Source of the DNA: an uncultured Myxococcales bacterium
Lineage (GTDB): Bacteria; Myxococcota_A; Polyangia; Palsa-1104; JAEUJZ01
Length of the DNA stretch: 42,290 nucleotides
Assembly: GCA_937868485.1 (NCBI GenBank)
Contig: CALMML010000350.1
Span: 1 to 42,290, forward strand
Direction: 5' to 3'
Shown here: piece after piece, positions 2,257 to 42,266 of the stretch
Layout of the letters: each line of letters starts with the position of its first letter
How positions within the stretch are numbered: the stretch's first letter is position 1
Made by a program: the position numbers and the translations under genes
Notes under the pieces: generated by a model
Seen by the model: only the letters and a program-made list of their open reading frames with translations
What the model was told of the DNA's origin: nothing
The model's database searches: none

Positions 2257-3378
2257 TCATAGATGAAGGACGCAGCTTCCGATCACTTCGCCGCGCCACT
2301 TGGCCCGCAGGGCGTCTTTGTACTGCGCAAACGGAAAGCGGTGAGAGATGTACGGACGAATCTGACCGCTCTCGATCCACTGCATGATCTGGGCAAGTCG
2401 CGGCGGACGGATCGTTGGCTGATGAAGCGTCGAAATCACGGTCGGACAGCCGAGTACAGACAGTCCCTTCATCATGATCAGGTTGGTCGGAAGCTGGTTC
2501 GCGTTCGGTGCTCCACGCTGTCCTTTTCCGTTTGCAACAAAGGGAGTCGCGGCCCATCCCACGATCAGGAATCGTCCGCCAAACTGCATGCAGCGCAGGC
2601 TCTCTGTAGAGACTTCACCACCGACGCCGTCATAGACCACCGCAACGCCTTGTCCAGAGGTGATCGCTTTGACATCATCGCGAAAGCGACGCACCGCTGT
2701 GCTTCCGTCCGTGCTGCGGATGTTTAGGACATGATCCGCACCGTGGGCTTTGACGACCGCCAGCTTTTCATCGGATCGTCCGGTTGCAATGACGATGGCG
2801 CCCAGCTGCTTGGCAAGCTGTACCGCTGCAAGTCCCGTCGAGCCTGATGCTCCGTGAATCAAGACCACTTCACCGGCCTGTAGGTTTCCGCGCGCAACCA
2901 GACAGTGATATGCGGTCTCATAGTTGCCAAGCAGACAGCACGCTTCATCGAAAGACAGACCGCTCGGAATGGGTCGGACAGCTTCCAGCGGAGCCACTGC
3001 ATAGGACGCGAATCCACCCCACTGCTGATACGCACCGATCGATCGTGGACCGGAAAGGAGTCCATCCACATACACCGCTTCTCCGACGGAAATTCCGTGT
3101 TCTGCGGCTTCACTTCCGCGCCACAGCACTTCGCCCGCATACTCCAGTCCCGGTGTGTACGGAGGCTTGGGCATGTGCTGATACTGACCGCTGGTCATCA
3201 GCAGATCGACCCAGCCAACCTGCGCACTTCGCACCGCAATCAGGACATCGCGCGCGCCCAGTGTGTCTACGCTGGGAACCGTCATCTCGACGACAGACAG
3301 ACCTTGTTCAATCGCGGTCGCGGGATCTTCTGAAAACTCGTGCACCACAACGCGCTGACCGATTCCGCTGGGATTCAT
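2257..3378 (-). CDS. NADPH:quinone oxidoreductase-like, zinc-free MDR-family dehydrogenase
   Basis: 373-residue medium-chain dehydrogenase/reductase. The N-terminal GroES-like domain contains VGWVDLLMTSGQY and PPYTPGLEYAGEV, the pattern of quinone oxidoreductases, which lack the catalytic and structural zinc ligands of alcohol dehydrogenases. The Rossmann domain carries VLIHGASGSTGLAAVQLAK followed by an NADP-type ATGRSDEK segment. It probably reduces quinones or enoyl/enone substrates with NADPH in the cytoplasm; the substrate cannot be read from sequence. It lies 55 bp upstream of the receptor-like gene on the same strand, so cotranscription is possible. The AAGGAG nearest the start is 12 nt from the ATG, longer than usual. 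The C-terminal half has an insert after GWAATPFVANG typical of some QOR-like subfamilies. Confidence 0.88.
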   Translation of the reverse strand: MNPSGIGQRVVVHEFSEDPATAIEQGLSVVEMTVPSVDTLGARDVLIAVRSAQVGWVDLLMTSGQYQHMPKPPYTPGLEYAGEVLWRGSEAAEHGISVGEAVYVDGLLSGPRSIGAYQQWGGFASYAVAPLEAVRPIPSGLSFDEACCLLGNYETAYHCLVARGNLQAGEVVLIHGASGSTGLAAVQLAKQLGAIVIATGRSDEKLAVVKAHGADHVLNIRSTDGSTAVRRFRDDVKAITSGQGVAVVYDGVGGEVSTESLRCMQFGGRFLIVGWAATPFVANGKGQRGAPNANQLPTNLIMMKGLSVLGCPTVISTLHQPTIRPPRLAQIMQWIESGQIRPYISHRFPFAQYKDALRAKWRGEVIGSCVLHL

Positions 3379-3724
3379 GGTCTCTGCTGGCTCCTTGCTT
3401 GGGGCTGCTTGGGAATGCTCGGCGGCATCCTATCATGGGCTACTGTGTCAACGCGGAGCCGGGCCGGTATTTTCTTACATTAGGGAAGAAATTAGGCTGA
3501 TAAAGAGCGTAATCAGGATGAAGACAACGCGATTAACACGGTGCATCGTTGTGGTTCGCGGCGCTGCTTTCTTTGCATAGTGAGCGCTCGACAAGGTCAG
3601 AGAATCCCCGACACCTGATGACCCATAAGCGCGTCTATTGTGAACTTCCGCGCTCGGCCTGTGGCGCAAATCCCCGTCGAGAAGAAAGAAATGACACCGA
3701 TTTGTAACAAAATCCAATGGTTCG
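3379..3724. other. Intergenic region, divergent promoters expected
   Basis: 346 bp between the divergent quinone-oxidoreductase-like and desaturase-like genes. It must hold both promoters, but no convincing -35/-10 pair was found; a minus-strand TTGACA lacks a well-spaced -10. The distal part has a 20-codon open frame starting at the ATG at 3691, after a purine-rich GAGAAGAAAGAA stretch, that ends inside the desaturase gene. The 13-mer TGACACCGATYTG occurs at 3692-3704 and again at 3751-3763. No RNA gene was recognised. Confidence 0.5.
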
Positions 3725-3763
3725 ATGACTACGCACTATGGAGCGCGCAGTGACACCGATCTG
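3692..3763. repeat. Direct 13-mer repeat straddling the desaturase start
   Basis: TGACACCGATYTG occurs at 3692-3704 and 3751-3763, 59 bp apart, one copy upstream of the ATG and one inside the first codons. It could be an operator pair or chance; no regulator gene is adjacent. Confidence 0.35.
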
Positions 3764-4750
3764 ACTGTGACATTGCGCACCTTTTTGACAGCACTGCGTG
3801 ATAAAGATCTAAGCGACAAAATCACGTTCCACACAGAGGACAGCAGCAAAATGGCATTCGATATCGAACGATTCGTGGATCTCTCGAAGGCGGTTGAGAC
3901 GTCTGATCTCGACTGGGACTACATCAAGCGCGTCGGCGTCACGAAGGTGGAAGCTCGCATCCTTCGCTATATGGCGGACGTCGAGAGCCACACCATCATC
4001 TATCTGCGCGACATTCTCTCTGGGCACACCGCAGGGGATCCAGAGATCACGCAGTTTATGGCTTGTTGGGTGTACGAAGAGACGCATCACGGACGAGCGC
4101 TCGATCGATTCCTGACCGCGTGCGGATATCCTCCAGAGTCCGGTCGCTACACCAAAGTGCTGTCCAACATGGGCTGGCAGGAACACCTGGAAGCGTTTCT
4201 GACCACCAGCTTGCCGAAGCTGACGCCGCACTTTGCCGCGACGCACATGTCGTGGGGAGCGGTCGATGAAATGATGGCTGCGTCCGCGTACACGATGCTC
4301 GCGTACTACACCAAAAATGAAGAGCTTTCGAAGCTGCTTCTGCGGATGGCCAAGGACGAGCGGCGTCACCAGTCGTTCTACTATCACCAAGCAGAGAAGC
4401 GACTTGCGCATCCGCTTGCGCAGGCGATCTGTGCGACGGCGATGCGGGTGTTCTGGAACCCGGTGGGAGTGGGCGTTGGGGAAGAAAACACGCTCGGACT
4501 CATCGGCGCGCTGCTGTATGACGATGAGCGCGGTCGCGAAGAGCTGGGACGGATGGATCGCTTGATGGCCAAGCTGCCCGGACTCGGCTGGTTTCAGCGT
4601 GCGTCCGTCGAAGTCGGCAAGGCGATCGAGATGTTCCGTTCAACCGAGCCGGACGTCGCGCGTGAGCTGGATAAGAGCAAGGGCGACACCGACCGCCTCC
4701 GGGCCGATCGTCTTCGCAATCCAGAGTTTGCTCTGACCAGCGCGAACTAG
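3725..4750 (+). CDS. Acyl-ACP desaturase-like diiron (ferritin-fold) protein
   Basis: 341 residues, all-helical. The six expected diiron ligands of the soluble acyl-ACP desaturase family are visible: E87 (VESHT), E118 with H121 (EETH), E182 (VDEMM), and E212 with H215 (ERRH). Those enzymes use O2 and reduced ferredoxin to put a cis double bond into an acyl chain held on ACP, so a role in membrane or secondary-lipid unsaturation is likely. The length is close to bacterial family members (about 300-350). It is transcribed alone and faces the lipid kinase gene across a strong hairpin. The start at 3725 has no obvious Shine-Dalgarno, and a short upstream frame overlaps it. Related ferritin-like oxidases acting on other acyl carriers cannot be excluded. 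Confidence 0.8.
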   Translation: MTTHYGARSDTDLTVTLRTFLTALRDKDLSDKITFHTEDSSKMAFDIERFVDLSKAVETSDLDWDYIKRVGVTKVEARILRYMADVESHTIIYLRDILSGHTAGDPEITQFMACWVYEETHHGRALDRFLTACGYPPESGRYTKVLSNMGWQEHLEAFLTTSLPKLTPHFAATHMSWGAVDEMMAASAYTMLAYYTKNEELSKLLLRMAKDERRHQSFYYHQAEKRLAHPLAQAICATAMRVFWNPVGVGVGEENTLGLIGALLYDDERGREELGRMDRLMAKLPGLGWFQRASVEVGKAIEMFRSTEPDVARELDKSKGDTDRLRADRLRNPEFALTSAN

Positions 4751-7492: not shown

Positions 7493-8299
7493 CTACAGCG
7501 GCGGTGTCCCGAAGCTGACATCGCCCGATAAGAGCCGCTCGACATAGCCATCGTCTCGACGAAGCAAAAGCGCTCCGTCGTGGTCAATCCCAAGCGAGTC
7601 ACCACTCAGCTTCCCCGACGCGGTCTGGACGTGAAGTCGCCGCCCCGGTGCCGTCAGGTGTGCGCGTGCCGAAAACGCTTCAATCACCCAGCTTGAACCG
7701 TCGCTGACAAAGCGCTGATAGAGCGGCTCGAAGTGATCCAGCAGCGACAGCGCGAAGTCGTGAACCGGCAGCGGTGGCGCGTCACTTCCCAGGAGCTTGC
7801 GCAGGCTGATCGCGGGAACGTCGTCGGGAAAGTGCAAGCCAGAGACGTTTACACCGATGCCGACGATCACAAAGTCACAGCGCGAACCGACGAGCGTCAT
7901 CTCGGTCAAGATGCCCGAAACCTTGCGAAGTCCGTCGGGCGTCGTCGCCAGCAGATCGTTTGGCCACTTGAGCAGAAGTGGAGATTCCGACGCTGCGAAG
8001 CCTGCACTGCGCAGACAGTCGAGCGCAGCAGACTCGACGGCAAGTCCCGCGCACAGCGTCAAAAGCGGAACATCCCGAGGCTGAAGCGACGGACGAAGCA
8101 GCAGCGACAGATACAGGTTGTCGCCCGGTGGAGAAAACCACGATCGACCTTGACGACCGCGACCGTTGGTCTGCGCGTCGGCGGTGACGACGGTGCCGTG
8201 TGGCTTTCCGGCCTTGCCGAGCGCGCGCGCTTCATCGCTCGTCGAGCCGCAGCTTGCGTGATGCAGCCACGGACTTCCAAACTGGCTCAGCGTCGGCAT
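7493..8299 (-). CDS. birA: Biotin--[acetyl-CoA-carboxylase] ligase, monofunctional
   Basis: 268 residues from the ATG at 8299. It activates biotin to biotinyl-AMP and transfers it to the lysine of the biotin carboxyl carrier protein. The biotin/ATP loop GRGRQGRSW is at 46-54, KWPNDL at 111-116, KVSGILTE at 126-133 and GIGVNVS at 147-153, all in family order, followed by the small C-terminal SH3-like domain. There is no N-terminal winged helix, so it should not act as a biotin-operon repressor. The open frame continues upstream for 60 codons, but those overlap the end of tyrS and do not resemble the family. The chosen start is 11 nt after the tyrS stop, suggesting a tyrS-birA operon. Confidence 0.93.
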   Translation of the reverse strand: MPTLSQFGSPWLHHASCGSTSDEARALGKAGKPHGTVVTADAQTNGRGRQGRSWFSPPGDNLYLSLLLRPSLQPRDVPLLTLCAGLAVESAALDCLRSAGFAASESPLLLKWPNDLLATTPDGLRKVSGILTEMTLVGSRCDFVIVGIGVNVSGLHFPDDVPAISLRKLLGSDAPPLPVHDFALSLLDHFEPLYQRFVSDGSSWVIEAFSARAHLTAPGRRLHVQTASGKLSGDSLGIDHDGALLLRRDDGYVERLLSGDVSFGTPPL

Positions 8300-38114: not shown

Positions 38115-39506
38115 CTATTTGTCTAGATCGATCTTGTGTGCGCCTGCATCGGGGGAAAATCGCTGCGGATCGATGCCGTGACGCTCGATCAGTCGTCGGA
38201 GCTGCGTGCGATGAAGTCCGAGCGCTCGTGCCGTCGCTGCGACGTTTCCTTGCTGCATGCGGAGTGCTTGTTCGATCCGTGCGCACTCGGCGGGATCGGT
38301 GGCGCGAATCGATGGTGGTGTGTAGTCATCCAGCATCCCTTCCTGCGGCTGTCCCAGCGCCCGCAGGATCGTTCCTGCGCCTTCTGGAAGGTGACGCGAT
38401 TCAATGCGCGGACAGGTCTGGATCGCTGCGTTTTGCACCGCACTGCGTACTTCCACAATCAGCTCGCGGATGTTGCCCGGCCACGGTCGCAGAAGACACG
38501 TCTCGATGAGCGAGGGATGAACCTGCGCCATCGTGGTCGTGCGCTTGACCGCCGCATCAATCAGGTAGGGAATCTCTTCCAGGCGCTTGCGCAGTGGCGG
38601 AATGTGAACGCAAGGTCGCGCGATTCGATAGTACAGATCTTCGCGAAAGCGGCCCTGCGTCACCAGCAGCTTCAGATCTTTGTTGGTCGCAGAGCAGATG
38701 TGAATCTCGACGCGATGCGGACGATTGGCACCGAGCGGCAGCAGCTCTTTGGTTTCGATCACACGCAGCAGCTTGGCTTGCACTTGCAGATCCAGATCTC
38801 CGACTTCATCCAGGAACAGCGTGCCTCCGGCTGCGGCTTGAATGTAGCCCTCTGCATGGCTGTCTGCACCGGAATAGGCACCGCGTCGTGCACCGAACAG
38901 GAGCCGCTCTGCCACTCCCTGTGGAATGGCTGCGCAGTTGACTGCAACAAACGGACCTCCGGCGCGTGGACCACTTTCATGAAAGGCATGCGCGGCCATC
39001 TCTTTTCCTGCGCCGCTTTCTCCGGTGATGTGCAGGGTGTCCCCGAACAGCGCCGACTGCTTGGCGATGGCAAACACGTCTTGCAGCGCTGGTCCCAGCA
39101 CCTTTCCTGCGCTGATGATGACGCCGCGCTGATACAGCGGAGTGATGTCGTGATAGACCGCGAACAGAGAGTCTCCCATCCGAATCACGCGCTGGATTTC
39201 GACCTGCTGCTGCGACGGAATCGGCTTGCCATCGACCGCCGTTCCGTTGTGACTTCCCAAGTCGGTAGCCAGAAAGCGCCGACCATCGTACACAATGCGC
39301 GCATGGCGTCGCGACATCCGCTGGTCTTGCTCCATGTGGTGACTACCTCGACCCACTTCGACAGACCCGCTGATGATAGGAATGACCATCGTACACGGGC
39401 TGCCACTGCGTGAAAGCAGAGCAATTCCGGGACTTCGCTCTGCGGACAGGTGCTGATCGGAGCGCGGTGTCTCCGCCTCCTTCAGGGTCGAGGCCTGGTC
39501 GGACAT
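38115..39506 (-). CDS. Sigma-54-type transcriptional activator: FHA, AAA+, Fis HTH
   Basis: 463 residues from the ATG at 39506. The N-terminal FHA domain has VGRG (51-54), SRRHA (65-69) and GSHNGT (84-89), binding phosphothreonine. The AAA+ domain has Walker A GESGAGKE (162-169), GAYSGA (209-214) in the place of GAFTGA, Walker B LFLDEVG (230-236), RFREDLYYRI and WPGNIREL (342-349). A Fis-type HTH lies at 407-441 (ECARIEQAL, then GNVAATARALGLHR). This is a sigma-54 enhancer-binding protein whose activity is probably set by Ser/Thr kinases rather than by a response-regulator receiver. The altered GAFTGA loop is conservative (F to Y, T to S), so activity is likely retained but not certain. The open frame extends to 39665; those codons lie in the promoter region and start 5' of a TATAAT box. 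Confidence 0.93.
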   Translation of the reverse strand: MSDQASTLKEAETPRSDQHLSAERSPGIALLSRSGSPCTMVIPIISGSVEVGRGSHHMEQDQRMSRRHARIVYDGRRFLATDLGSHNGTAVDGKPIPSQQQVEIQRVIRMGDSLFAVYHDITPLYQRGVIISAGKVLGPALQDVFAIAKQSALFGDTLHITGESGAGKEMAAHAFHESGPRAGGPFVAVNCAAIPQGVAERLLFGARRGAYSGADSHAEGYIQAAAGGTLFLDEVGDLDLQVQAKLLRVIETKELLPLGANRPHRVEIHICSATNKDLKLLVTQGRFREDLYYRIARPCVHIPPLRKRLEEIPYLIDAAVKRTTTMAQVHPSLIETCLLRPWPGNIRELIVEVRSAVQNAAIQTCPRIESRHLPEGAGTILRALGQPQEGMLDDYTPPSIRATDPAECARIEQALRMQQGNVAATARALGLHRTQLRRLIERHGIDPQRFSPDAGAHKIDLDK

Positions 39507-39512
39507 GGGCCC

Positions 39513-39518
39513 ATTATA
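39513..39518 (-). promoter_or_regulatory. Putative -10 box of the FHA regulator (leaderless transcript)
   Basis: Perfect TATAAT on the minus strand, followed by GGGCCC and then the ATG at 39506. Transcription from this box would begin at or next to the ATG, giving a leaderless mRNA. No good TTGACA lies 17 bp upstream; the heptamer cluster at 39532-39587 occupies the -35 region and beyond, implying autoregulation. Confidence 0.5.
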
Positions 39519-39531
39519 CGGGAGAGGACGA

Positions 39532-39587
39532 TGGCACAGGCGATGGCACAGATCGTGGCACAGCGCTGTGCCACATCCGATGTGCCA
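39532..39587. promoter_or_regulatory. Heptamer cluster, probable enhancer (UAS) with an 18-bp palindrome
   Basis: TGGCACA occurs at 39532, 39544 and 39556, exactly 12 bp apart, and its reverse complement TGTGCCA at 39567 and 39581. The third and fourth form a perfect palindrome, TGGCACAGCGCTGTGCCA (39556-39573). It lies between the divergent sigma-54 activator and the ADYC lipoproteins, 150-210 bp upstream of the sigma-54 promoter, the normal position for enhancer sites of such regulators. Binding by the adjacent Fis-type HTH protein is inferred. Confidence 0.72.
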
Positions 39588-39740
39588 GGTGAATCCCTTA
39601 GGTGGGATACCTGGCTCTGTTCCACACAGAATGCGGCGACTGGTCGCGATTCCTAAGCAGTTCAAAAGACAAAGGAATCAGCAGCAGCAGTCGCTTGGGA
39701 GTCCGCCAGGGACACAGGTCAGCGGAGGCTGTTTTCGTCG

Positions 39741-39756
39741 TGGCATGGCCTTTGCC
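39741..39756 (+). promoter_or_regulatory. Sigma-54 promoter of the ADYC lipoprotein genes
   Basis: TGGCATGGCCTTTGCC matches the consensus TGGCACG-N4-TTGCW in all but one or two positions, with the invariant GG (39742-39743) and GC (39754-39755) separated by exactly 10 bp. Transcription should start near 39767, giving a ~110-nt leader before the lipoprotein start at 39880. Confidence 0.75.
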
Positions 39757-39879: not shown

Positions 39880-41040
39880 ATGAAACGCTCTCTGTTTTCG
39901 TCGGTGATCGGTGTCTGTTTGCTCGTCTCTGCGGGATGTAGTGTCGCTGGCGCTGACATGCAGGACAGCGTAGACCGCACGATCAAGGTCTGCACCCGGG
40001 GTGATGGCTCGTGTATGGAGTCAAACTGCGATGAGCTGTATCAGCCCTATCAGGGGCCAGGTAGCATGTTCGGAATGCAGCACCCGGACTGGGGCACCGC
40101 GACCACGTACAAGGTGGTGGGATTCCGGCCTCCGACCGATCTGGAAGTACAAAGCAGCGGTGACAAGCGCTGGATTGTACGCGGCTACGCAGTGACCGCA
40201 GGGGTTCATACCTACGTCGAAGGTCGCGTGGTGGCGAGCAGCTTCAAGAACATCGCCACAACGTTTCTCGAGATGGAAGCCAAGGAAAGTCAGCTGGTGA
40301 TCCGGCTGGACTCAGGCAACGGTCAAGTGCTGGTTGTGGCAAGCAAAGATCTGGTCGGGCTGCGACTGTGGCTGACGGTTCCGAGCCTGAGTGCGCGGTC
40401 GCGTGGAGAGCAGACGTTTGAGTGGTCGTTTGCGAGTCCGCCGAGCGATCTTGCCGATAGCTGGGCGGAAGGCATTCCCATCGTTGGCTATCCCGTCAAC
40501 TGGGAAACCAAGGCAGGTGTAGGCGTTCATCCGCTGTGTGCGGGCGACGGTGGGGCTCCGCAGCGCGCGGTGTTTCTGCAAGGTCAGACCTGGGATCCAG
40601 AGACCTTTGCGCTCAGCGGCAGTGTGACGGATCGAACGGTGACGGTGGCCTGTGAGCTGGGGGCGATCGCTTCGTGCCACAACTGGGGCTATGCTCCGTG
40701 GACGGAAGGGACGCGAACGGCAGATGGTCAGTCCGCGGATATGACTGCGGTGGAGCAGACCTGCATTCGCATGAAGACTGCGGACTACTGCGGAACGGGA
40801 CTGGTTCATACCCAGTACGGAACGCAGATTGTGGTGAACACTCCGATCGAGAAAGTTCGGCATCTGTCGGCTCAGCCGAGGCTGGAAGCCATCTGGAATG
40901 AACATGGTGCGATCTGTGTCATCGACAACAACCGTCGTCACCAGAACATGTACTACGCCTGTGATGCCAGCATTCCGCAGTGTGACAAGGACTACATTGC
41001 GAAGTTTGCTCCGTACTTTATGTCCTCTGGTTTGCCGTAG
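39880..41040 (+). CDS. ADYC-domain cysteine-rich lipoprotein, copy 1
   Basis: 386 residues from the ATG at 39880, with a purine-rich GGGGGA upstream. The signal peptide ends in the lipobox-like LVSAGC (C20). The mature protein has eleven cysteines at positions shared with the next gene: three in KVCTRGDGSCMESNCDE, one in HPLCAGD, two in CELGAIASCHNWGYAPW, two in CIRMKTADYCG, one in AICVIDNN and two near the C-terminus. The ADYC motif (in KTADYCG) names a domain largely confined to myxobacterial secreted proteins of unknown function. The middle region (about 75-190) looks like a beta-sandwich. It is predicted to sit on the cell surface or outer membrane with several disulfides. The frame is open from an ATG at 39772, 5 nt after the predicted sigma-54 start site, but only the later ATG gives a signal peptide. 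Confidence 0.88.
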   Translation: MKRSLFSSVIGVCLLVSAGCSVAGADMQDSVDRTIKVCTRGDGSCMESNCDELYQPYQGPGSMFGMQHPDWGTATTYKVVGFRPPTDLEVQSSGDKRWIVRGYAVTAGVHTYVEGRVVASSFKNIATTFLEMEAKESQLVIRLDSGNGQVLVVASKDLVGLRLWLTVPSLSARSRGEQTFEWSFASPPSDLADSWAEGIPIVGYPVNWETKAGVGVHPLCAGDGGAPQRAVFLQGQTWDPETFALSGSVTDRTVTVACELGAIASCHNWGYAPWTEGTRTADGQSADMTAVEQTCIRMKTADYCGTGLVHTQYGTQIVVNTPIEKVRHLSAQPRLEAIWNEHGAICVIDNNRRHQNMYYACDASIPQCDKDYIAKFAPYFMSSGLP

Positions 41041-41111: not shown

Positions 41112-42266
41112 ATGAAAAAGAGCGCGCTATGTTCCGGTCTGTTTCTGCTGCTTGGGGCAAGCTGTGAGCCGAGTCAGGTTGGGTCCGAGCAGTCCACCGT
41201 ACGCGAGCCGATCAAGGTCTGTACACGCAGTGATGGAACCTGCACAGATTCCAACTGCGACGACATCAACCAGCCGTATCAGGGGTCCGGCTCTGACTTT
41301 TCGATGAAAGAGCCGAACACGCTGAGCTATCGCTACAAGCTCACCGGCTTCTATCGGAATGCGACCGGAAGCTGGCTGGTGCGTGGCTATCACGTCAAAC
41401 AGACTCCGCTGTCACCGACGCACGTTCCTGCGGACGGAACGGTCACGGGACTGACGGTCGGGGGCGTGAGTCAGAAGCTGGTCAACTTCGATGCACAGAA
41501 CGGCAATGTGAAGCTTACCTATTGCACGCCAGGCGCGGCGGGTTGTGGGGCCGGCGTCAATGTGGTTGCGACAGGAACGTCTCTGTTGGGGGTGCAGATC
41601 AAGCTGCAAGTGCCCTATGCCCCGGGGCTGACTGCGGGTGGCTTCATCGACTACACGCTACAGTTTGACTCGATTCCGCAGGTCTTGAACCTGGTCAGTC
41701 CCAGCTCTGTGGATGTGCGAGGGTTCAAGTTCAGCTACTTCTACACAGGGCTTGCGCCGCAGTCGCTGTGTCAGGGACCGCTCGGGGTGTCGCAGCGGAC
41801 GTTCTTCTATCAGGACTCCTACTGGCATCCAGAGACGTTTCTGCGTACCCAAGAGGCCAGCGCCATCACCGTCACCTGCGAGCTTGGCGCCATCGCGGCG
41901 TGCATGAGCTGGGGCTATCGTCCGTGGGATACGCGATCCTTCAACAGCAACACCGTGAGCCTGCGATCGTGGCATGCGGCCTGCGTCAACATGAAGACTG
42001 CGAACTACTGCGGCGATGGCGTGGCCTGGACGCGCTACGGAACGTCGATCTATGTAAACGATCCACTGTCGCCTCAGGTGATGGGCGGTAGCTTGGCGCG
42101 ACTGGAAGCATTCTGGGATGAAAACGGCGCGCTCTGTGTCAACGATGGGAATCGCCGTGTGGCGTCGCTGCCGTGGTCTACCTCAAGCTGCTACGCGAAC
42201 ATACCCAGCTGCGACACCCTGGGATCGAGCGCAGCGTCCAGCTTCCTCGGCTCTGCCATCCCGTAG
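41112..42266 (+). CDS. ADYC-domain cysteine-rich lipoprotein, copy 2
   Basis: 384 residues from the ATG at 41112 (an ATG at 41091 adds seven residues before the signal peptide; AAGGTGAAG precedes 41112). The signal peptide ends in LLGASC (C18). It is a diverged tandem paralogue of the preceding gene: KVCTRSDGTCTDSNCDD, CELGAIAACMSWGYRPW, CVNMKTANYCGDG, RLEAFWDENGALCVNDGNRR. The eleven shared cysteines are kept, with one further pair (YCTPGAAGCG) in the middle. The name-giving motif is ANYC here, a conservative change. There is no separate sigma-54 motif upstream, so it is probably cotranscribed with copy 1. It ends 24 bp before the window edge. Confidence 0.88.
   Translation: MKKSALCSGLFLLLGASCEPSQVGSEQSTVREPIKVCTRSDGTCTDSNCDDINQPYQGSGSDFSMKEPNTLSYRYKLTGFYRNATGSWLVRGYHVKQTPLSPTHVPADGTVTGLTVGGVSQKLVNFDAQNGNVKLTYCTPGAAGCGAGVNVVATGTSLLGVQIKLQVPYAPGLTAGGFIDYTLQFDSIPQVLNLVSPSSVDVRGFKFSYFYTGLAPQSLCQGPLGVSQRTFFYQDSYWHPETFLRTQEASAITVTCELGAIAACMSWGYRPWDTRSFNSNTVSLRSWHAACVNMKTANYCGDGVAWTRYGTSIYVNDPLSPQVMGGSLARLEAFWDENGALCVNDGNRRVASLPWSTSSCYANIPSCDTLGSSAASSFLGSAIP

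Follow-up and report, generated by a model that had tools for sequence, protein, structure and literature searches.

What does an ordered cluster of identical heptamers do in front of a divergent gene, and which protein reads it? We addressed this question in a contig of an uncultured Myxococcales bacterium (the whole 42,290-nucleotide stretch analysed is called the window here), in which TGGCACA recurs as an exact word five times over a short intergenic segment:

39532-39587, no strand: putative upstream activating sequence made up of five TGGCACA half-sites (> > > < <)
39532-39538, plus strand: half-site 1, TGGCACA, overlapping the place expected for a -35 element of the activator promoter
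39544-39550, plus strand: half-site 2, exact heptamer
39556-39562, plus strand: half-site 3, exact heptamer, left arm of the dyad
39567-39573, minus strand: half-site 4, exact heptamer, right arm of the dyad
39581-39587, minus strand: half-site 5, exact heptamer, 14 bp from half-site 4 here and 13 bp in congeners
39555-39574, no strand: perfect 20-bp palindrome GTGGCACAGCGCTGTGCCAC, 100% complementary, with arms 7-N4-7

A first-pass annotation had described five heptamers, three of them direct and 12 bp apart, as too ordered for chance and intergenic. All five were recovered, with direct spacings of 12 and 12 bp; the palindrome that it reported is indeed perfect, its length being 20 bp and not 18 bp. 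The upstream region contains 5 heptamers versus 0.08 expected from 1000 dinucleotide shuffles, and first-order Markov simulations of the window (n = 30) gave at most 3 copies of any 7-mer per 56 bp, never 5. Besides TGGCACA, the only word with at least four copies per 56 bp in the window is CTGTGCC, a shifted word from the same array. Outside the array, TGGCACA appears just three more times in the window, each time isolated, and close pairs of the heptamer, direct or inverted, occur in the whole genome only within the array. A genome-wide scan for dyad-like sites, as the annotation had proposed, returned one exact copy of the 18-bp dyad, and all other sites at up to 3 mismatches have exactly 3. 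The array is located 26-81 bp upstream of the divergent activator gene (ATG at 39506). We excluded a conserved coding reading of this segment, since in the congeners the interval from half-site 4 to half-site 5 carries a 1-nt indel.

The gene on the left of the array encodes a predicted sigma-54 activator:

38115-39506, minus strand: activator gene, 463 aa, FHA domain, AAA+ (sigma-54 interaction) domain and Fis-type HTH (Pfam PF00498, PF00158, PF02954)
39513-39518, minus strand: TATAAT, probable -10 box, 6 nt before the activator ATG, kept in 4 of the 4 orthologous loci compared

Its AAA+ sigma-54 interaction domain (PF00158, E 3.7e-54) contains both Walker motifs (A, GESGAGKE; B, FLDEVGD), the C-terminal Fis-type HTH (PF02954, E 1.5e-8) carries the recognition helix GLHRTQLRRL, and the conserved residues of the FHA domain are present (GRG at 52, SRRH at 65 and NGT at 87). 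A search of solved structures with the HTH returned weak relatives only. Sigma-54 itself is encoded in the same genome (rpoN; TIGR02395, E 6.3e-135). The sigma-54 contact loop, L1, is GAYSGA in this protein and GAFSGA in its paralogues, not GAFTGA. This double variant counts against the activator reading, the variants taken as active in the literature being related ones only: in PspF, the change from Phe to Tyr in the contact loop is tolerated, as cited in PMC2941729, and GAFSGA, found in presumed activators, is among the variants expected to stay active (PMC4641369). The position of TATAAT suggests that the activator transcript is leaderless, because the box lies only 6 nt upstream of the ATG. 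Scanning the region for sigma-70 promoters gave no hit, although the conserved TATAAT is visible.

To the right of the array, starting 154 bp from it, lies a target absent from the first-pass annotation. It is a conserved sigma-54 promoter, and it precedes two genes probably sharing one operon:

39741-39756, plus strand: predicted sigma-54 promoter of the ADYC genes, TGGCATG-GCCT-TTGCC (-24/-12), from sequence and its conservation in orthologues
39880-41040, plus strand: ADYC-domain lipoprotein gene 1 (PF20032, E 9e-37), signal peptide ending LVSAGC
41112-42266, plus strand: ADYC-domain lipoprotein gene 2 (PF20032, E 4e-34); the contig ends just after it

The consensus of sigma-54 promoters is TGGCACG-N4-TTGCW. 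The ADYC promoter departs from it by two mismatches, with GG and GC intact and 10 bp between them, and TGGCATG-N4-TTG is kept in three orthologues. The centre of the array is about 195 bp from the -12 element here, and this distance ranges from 99 to 195 bp across ten loci.

We consider it highly likely that the array is the upstream activating sequence, or bacterial enhancer, of this sigma-54 promoter, bound by the adjacent FHA-AAA+-Fis-HTH activator and serving to switch on the ADYC genes. What is seen directly is the presence and conservation of the sites, the sequence of the promoter and the three-gene neighbourhood that recurs as described below; the steps that we infer are binding, ring assembly, looping, kinase input and autoregulation. 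An activator dimer would occupy the central palindrome; more subunits would be drawn in by the direct and inverted half-sites around it, so that an AAA+ ring is formed beside the DNA. The ring would then loop over the intervening ~195 bp to RNA polymerase-sigma-54 at 39741-39756, and this contact would switch on the two lipoprotein genes. The signal that feeds this switch is probably phosphorylation on threonine, sensed by the FHA domain; the likely kinase, proposed on the basis of gene neighbourhood, is a Ser/Thr kinase-TPR protein whose gene lies past the ADYC genes in relatives. Binding to the array may also repress the sigma-70-type promoter of the activator, autoregulation being possible because half-site 1 overlaps its -35 position. 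With five half-sites including orphan direct repeats, the locus offers a handle on how AAA+ rings nucleate on DNA.

We compared the intergenic region with those of two congeneric genomes (Myxococcales MAG JAEUKB01 and uncultured Myxococcales MAG CALLYL01; activators 89% and 82% identical). All five half-sites are kept and their bases are invariant at 35/35 positions in the three genomes, versus 57/172 elsewhere in the region (linkers 10/21, remainder 47/151; Fisher p = 6e-15). In the sister genus, G003, where the activator is 60% identical over the aligned part and TGGCATG-N4-TTG is kept, the array is rearranged into six clustered half-sites (five TGGCACA/TGTGCCA and one CGGCACA), mostly 13 bp apart, one of them inverted. 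In G007, from another family, the segment between the FHA activator and the ADYC gene holds CGGCACA copies at 10-bp spacing together with one in inverted orientation. Judged by these genomes, it is the heptamer word and its clustering that are conserved and not the 12-bp phase, because the spacing is 13 bp in G003 and 10 bp in G007; the phasing given in the first-pass annotation does not hold as a general rule. Twelve base pairs do not make an integral number of helical turns.

The arrangement of an FHA activator, an ADYC gene and a Ser/Thr kinase gene recurs in G002, G001, G003 and G007, in two further contigs of the genome of the window (C110 and C112), and in G002:C53 and G001:C111. The kinases mostly have TPR repeats (none reported for G003), and that of C112 is assigned by a phmmer match, as a partial protein with no match in the Pfam scan. 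In relatives the ADYC gene has the kinase gene as its neighbour, a position that the contig of the window does not reach. In C110, C112 and the C112 orthologues the half-site is TGACACA, not TGGCACA, and the TGACACA clusters of the paralogous modules stand 130-183 bp before the -12 element of a TGGCAYG-N4-TTG promoter. This promoter form, found in most paralogous loci, continues after TTG with C, G, T or A, the exception among the modules being G007 (CGGCCCG-N4-TTGC); in several paralogous loci the -12 element is TTGG, TTGA or TTGT instead of TTGC, which counts against the enhancer reading. As a side observation, the GAYSGA/GAFSGA loops (window activator; loci L044, L047 and L051) and the -12 forms TTGG/TTGA/TTGT of the targets are possibly linked. 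Another comes from G002:C53 (L048, reverse strand of 3300-3780): a 14-bp unit, GGCTTGGGAGTCCC, is repeated four times in tandem, its final copy diverging at the end, directly upstream of the TGACACA cluster that belongs to the ADYC gene.

These modules bear on a different reading of the array, as mainly an autoregulatory operator that represses the activator's own promoter, the ADYC genes not being the main target. Half-site 1 does overlap the expected -35 of the conserved TATAAT promoter and the array starts only 26 bp from the ATG, but the arrays of C112, G002:C53, G001:C111 and G003:C13 precede the ADYC sigma-54 promoter and not an activator promoter, and we regard this reading as unlikely. 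In modules with an upstream co-directional activator, the array is found between the activator and the ADYC gene, off the activator's own promoter. The conserved target would therefore be the ADYC promoter, and autoregulation, by the same arrangements, is not the conserved role of the array, since in some modules it lies away from the activator promoter.

Is the adjacent activator the protein that binds? Inverted TGACACA-N2-20-TGTGTCA pairs were sought in five whole genomes and found twice in the genome of the window and once each in G001, G002 and G003 (none in the reversed control), exclusively beside ADYC genes (2/2, 1/1, 1/1 and 1/1); the first four of these matches are the modules that supplied the word and are thus not independent, while G003:C13 is new. 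In this locus the pair is ~170 bp before TGGCACG-CGGT-TTGAC, an ADYC gene and a convergent kinase gene:

L184:7994-8034 and 8170-8184: ADYC-kinase locus of G003:C13, TGACACA array and TGGCACG-N4-TTG promoter

The stretch of G003:C13 that was read yielded no activator gene. Elsewhere in that genome, the C178 activator has the helix HRTQLKRL, which matches the array type of G003:C13, so that this array is possibly controlled in trans.

Counting against the enhancer reading, several FHA activators with 45-50% identity have neither such an array nor an ADYC neighbour. Likewise, an ADYC neighbour is absent from the distant FHA activators of G003:C125, G003:C178, G009, G017, G026, G029, G037, G137, G314, G356, G380, G383 and G385, and no comparable array was seen at the activators themselves, although absence means little in a phylum-wide search that scored only four candidates per genome. 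Two isolated observations belong here. In G380, a TGGCACA-type triplet is present ~0.8 kb upstream of the FHA activator, where an open frame resembling a Ser/Thr kinase begins:

L136:4669-4734: G380 cluster, two TGACACA copies beside three TGGCACA-type copies at 13-bp spacing

In G001:C623, a TGGCACA repeat with a 15-bp period, which may be inside an open frame, lies upstream of another ADYC domain.

The type of array follows the recognition helix of the activator. HRTQL-R-RL activators go with the G-type heptamer YGGCACA (the window, C350; G002, G001, G003 and G007), and HRTQL-K-RL or HRTQL-T-RL activators with the A-type TGACACA (C112, G002:C53, G001:C111; C110). That another DNA-binding protein, encoded elsewhere, recognises the array is very unlikely: the G003:C13 array has no activator gene in the stretch read, but the array type tracks the recognition helix of the neighbouring activator, and hardly any paired sites lie outside these loci. 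It is most improbable that TGGCAC recurs here as a series of sigma-54 -24 elements, as decoys or overlapping promoters, which its identity with the core of the -24 consensus might suggest, for none of the copies is followed by TTGC at the proper distance, the 12-bp repeat places GG where GC is needed, the paralogous TGACACA arrays have lost the GG, and the inverted copies are conserved. Tandem sigma-54 promoters were rejected on spacing.

The preferred reading thus remains that of an enhancer read by the FHA activator; as the first-pass annotation had implied, the array would be regulatory and very probably belongs to the adjacent AAA+/HTH protein. The covariation between helix and half-site, noticed after the fact and spanning about four independent lineages, is suggestive of a specificity code. 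We propose, tentatively and as the less probable case, that the paralogous kinase-TPR/FHA activator/ADYC switches are insulated by such a DNA code, in which the residue after HRTQL would set base 3 of the heptamer (Arg for G, Lys or Thr for A), giving about one target array per activator per genome. The paralogous modules provide a natural experiment on how activator paralogues keep their specificity.

FHA-domain enhancer-binding proteins have reportedly been described in Myxococcus xanthus by Jelsbak et al. in 2005. They share the FHA and AAA+ sigma-54 activator architecture. Nla28, also from M. xanthus, has repeated 8-bp half-sites upstream of TGGCACG-N4-TTGC promoters (PMC7910581), but its half-site is CTSCGSAG and its targets are many, whereas the genome of the window has no second array like the present one. 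At E. coli norR-norVW, several enhancer sites likewise lie between the activator gene and a target with a sigma-54 promoter, and the enhancer sites of NorR scaffold the AAA+ oligomer (PMC2941729). By analogy with these three sites, the role in oligomer loading suggested by the first-pass annotation is plausible; NorR, however, senses NO through a GAF domain, in contrast to the five mixed-orientation heptamers and FHA domain found here. CbrB of Pseudomonas putida resembles our case in that, at crcZ/crcY, a sigma-54 promoter is preceded by short, variably spaced subsites of mixed orientation (PMC6296734); it differs in having three subsites 20-25 bp apart, no palindrome and a two-component response regulator. 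The 18-bp site of GcsR in Pseudomonas aeruginosa, two 7-bp arms separated by 4 bp, has the geometry of the central dyad (PMC4894688), but GcsR is a TyrR-like activator with three complete dyads and no orphan direct half-sites. The kind of element is already known, while the open-licence papers searched appear to contain no description of the ADYC-kinase-FHA module or of the possible code linking helix and half-site; a full-text search of such papers found none on ADYC lipoproteins. The module represents a complete, testable switch for these lipoproteins, with a kinase signal, a reader, a DNA site, a promoter and an output.

A second repeat is present in the region, as single copies between the array and the sigma-54 promoter:

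39648-39657, minus strand: CTTRGGARTC, single copy
39694-39703, plus strand: CTTRGGARTC, single copy

CTTRGGARTC is a genus-specific dispersed repeat, often in tandem at 11-12 bp, as in (TTAGGAATCGA)n. Tandem pairs number 47 in the genome of the window, 128 in G002 and 5 in G001, with none in G003, G004, G007 or the reversed control. Some of the arrays are intergenic, such as that of L173 between two convergent open frames, and open frames also contain single copies.
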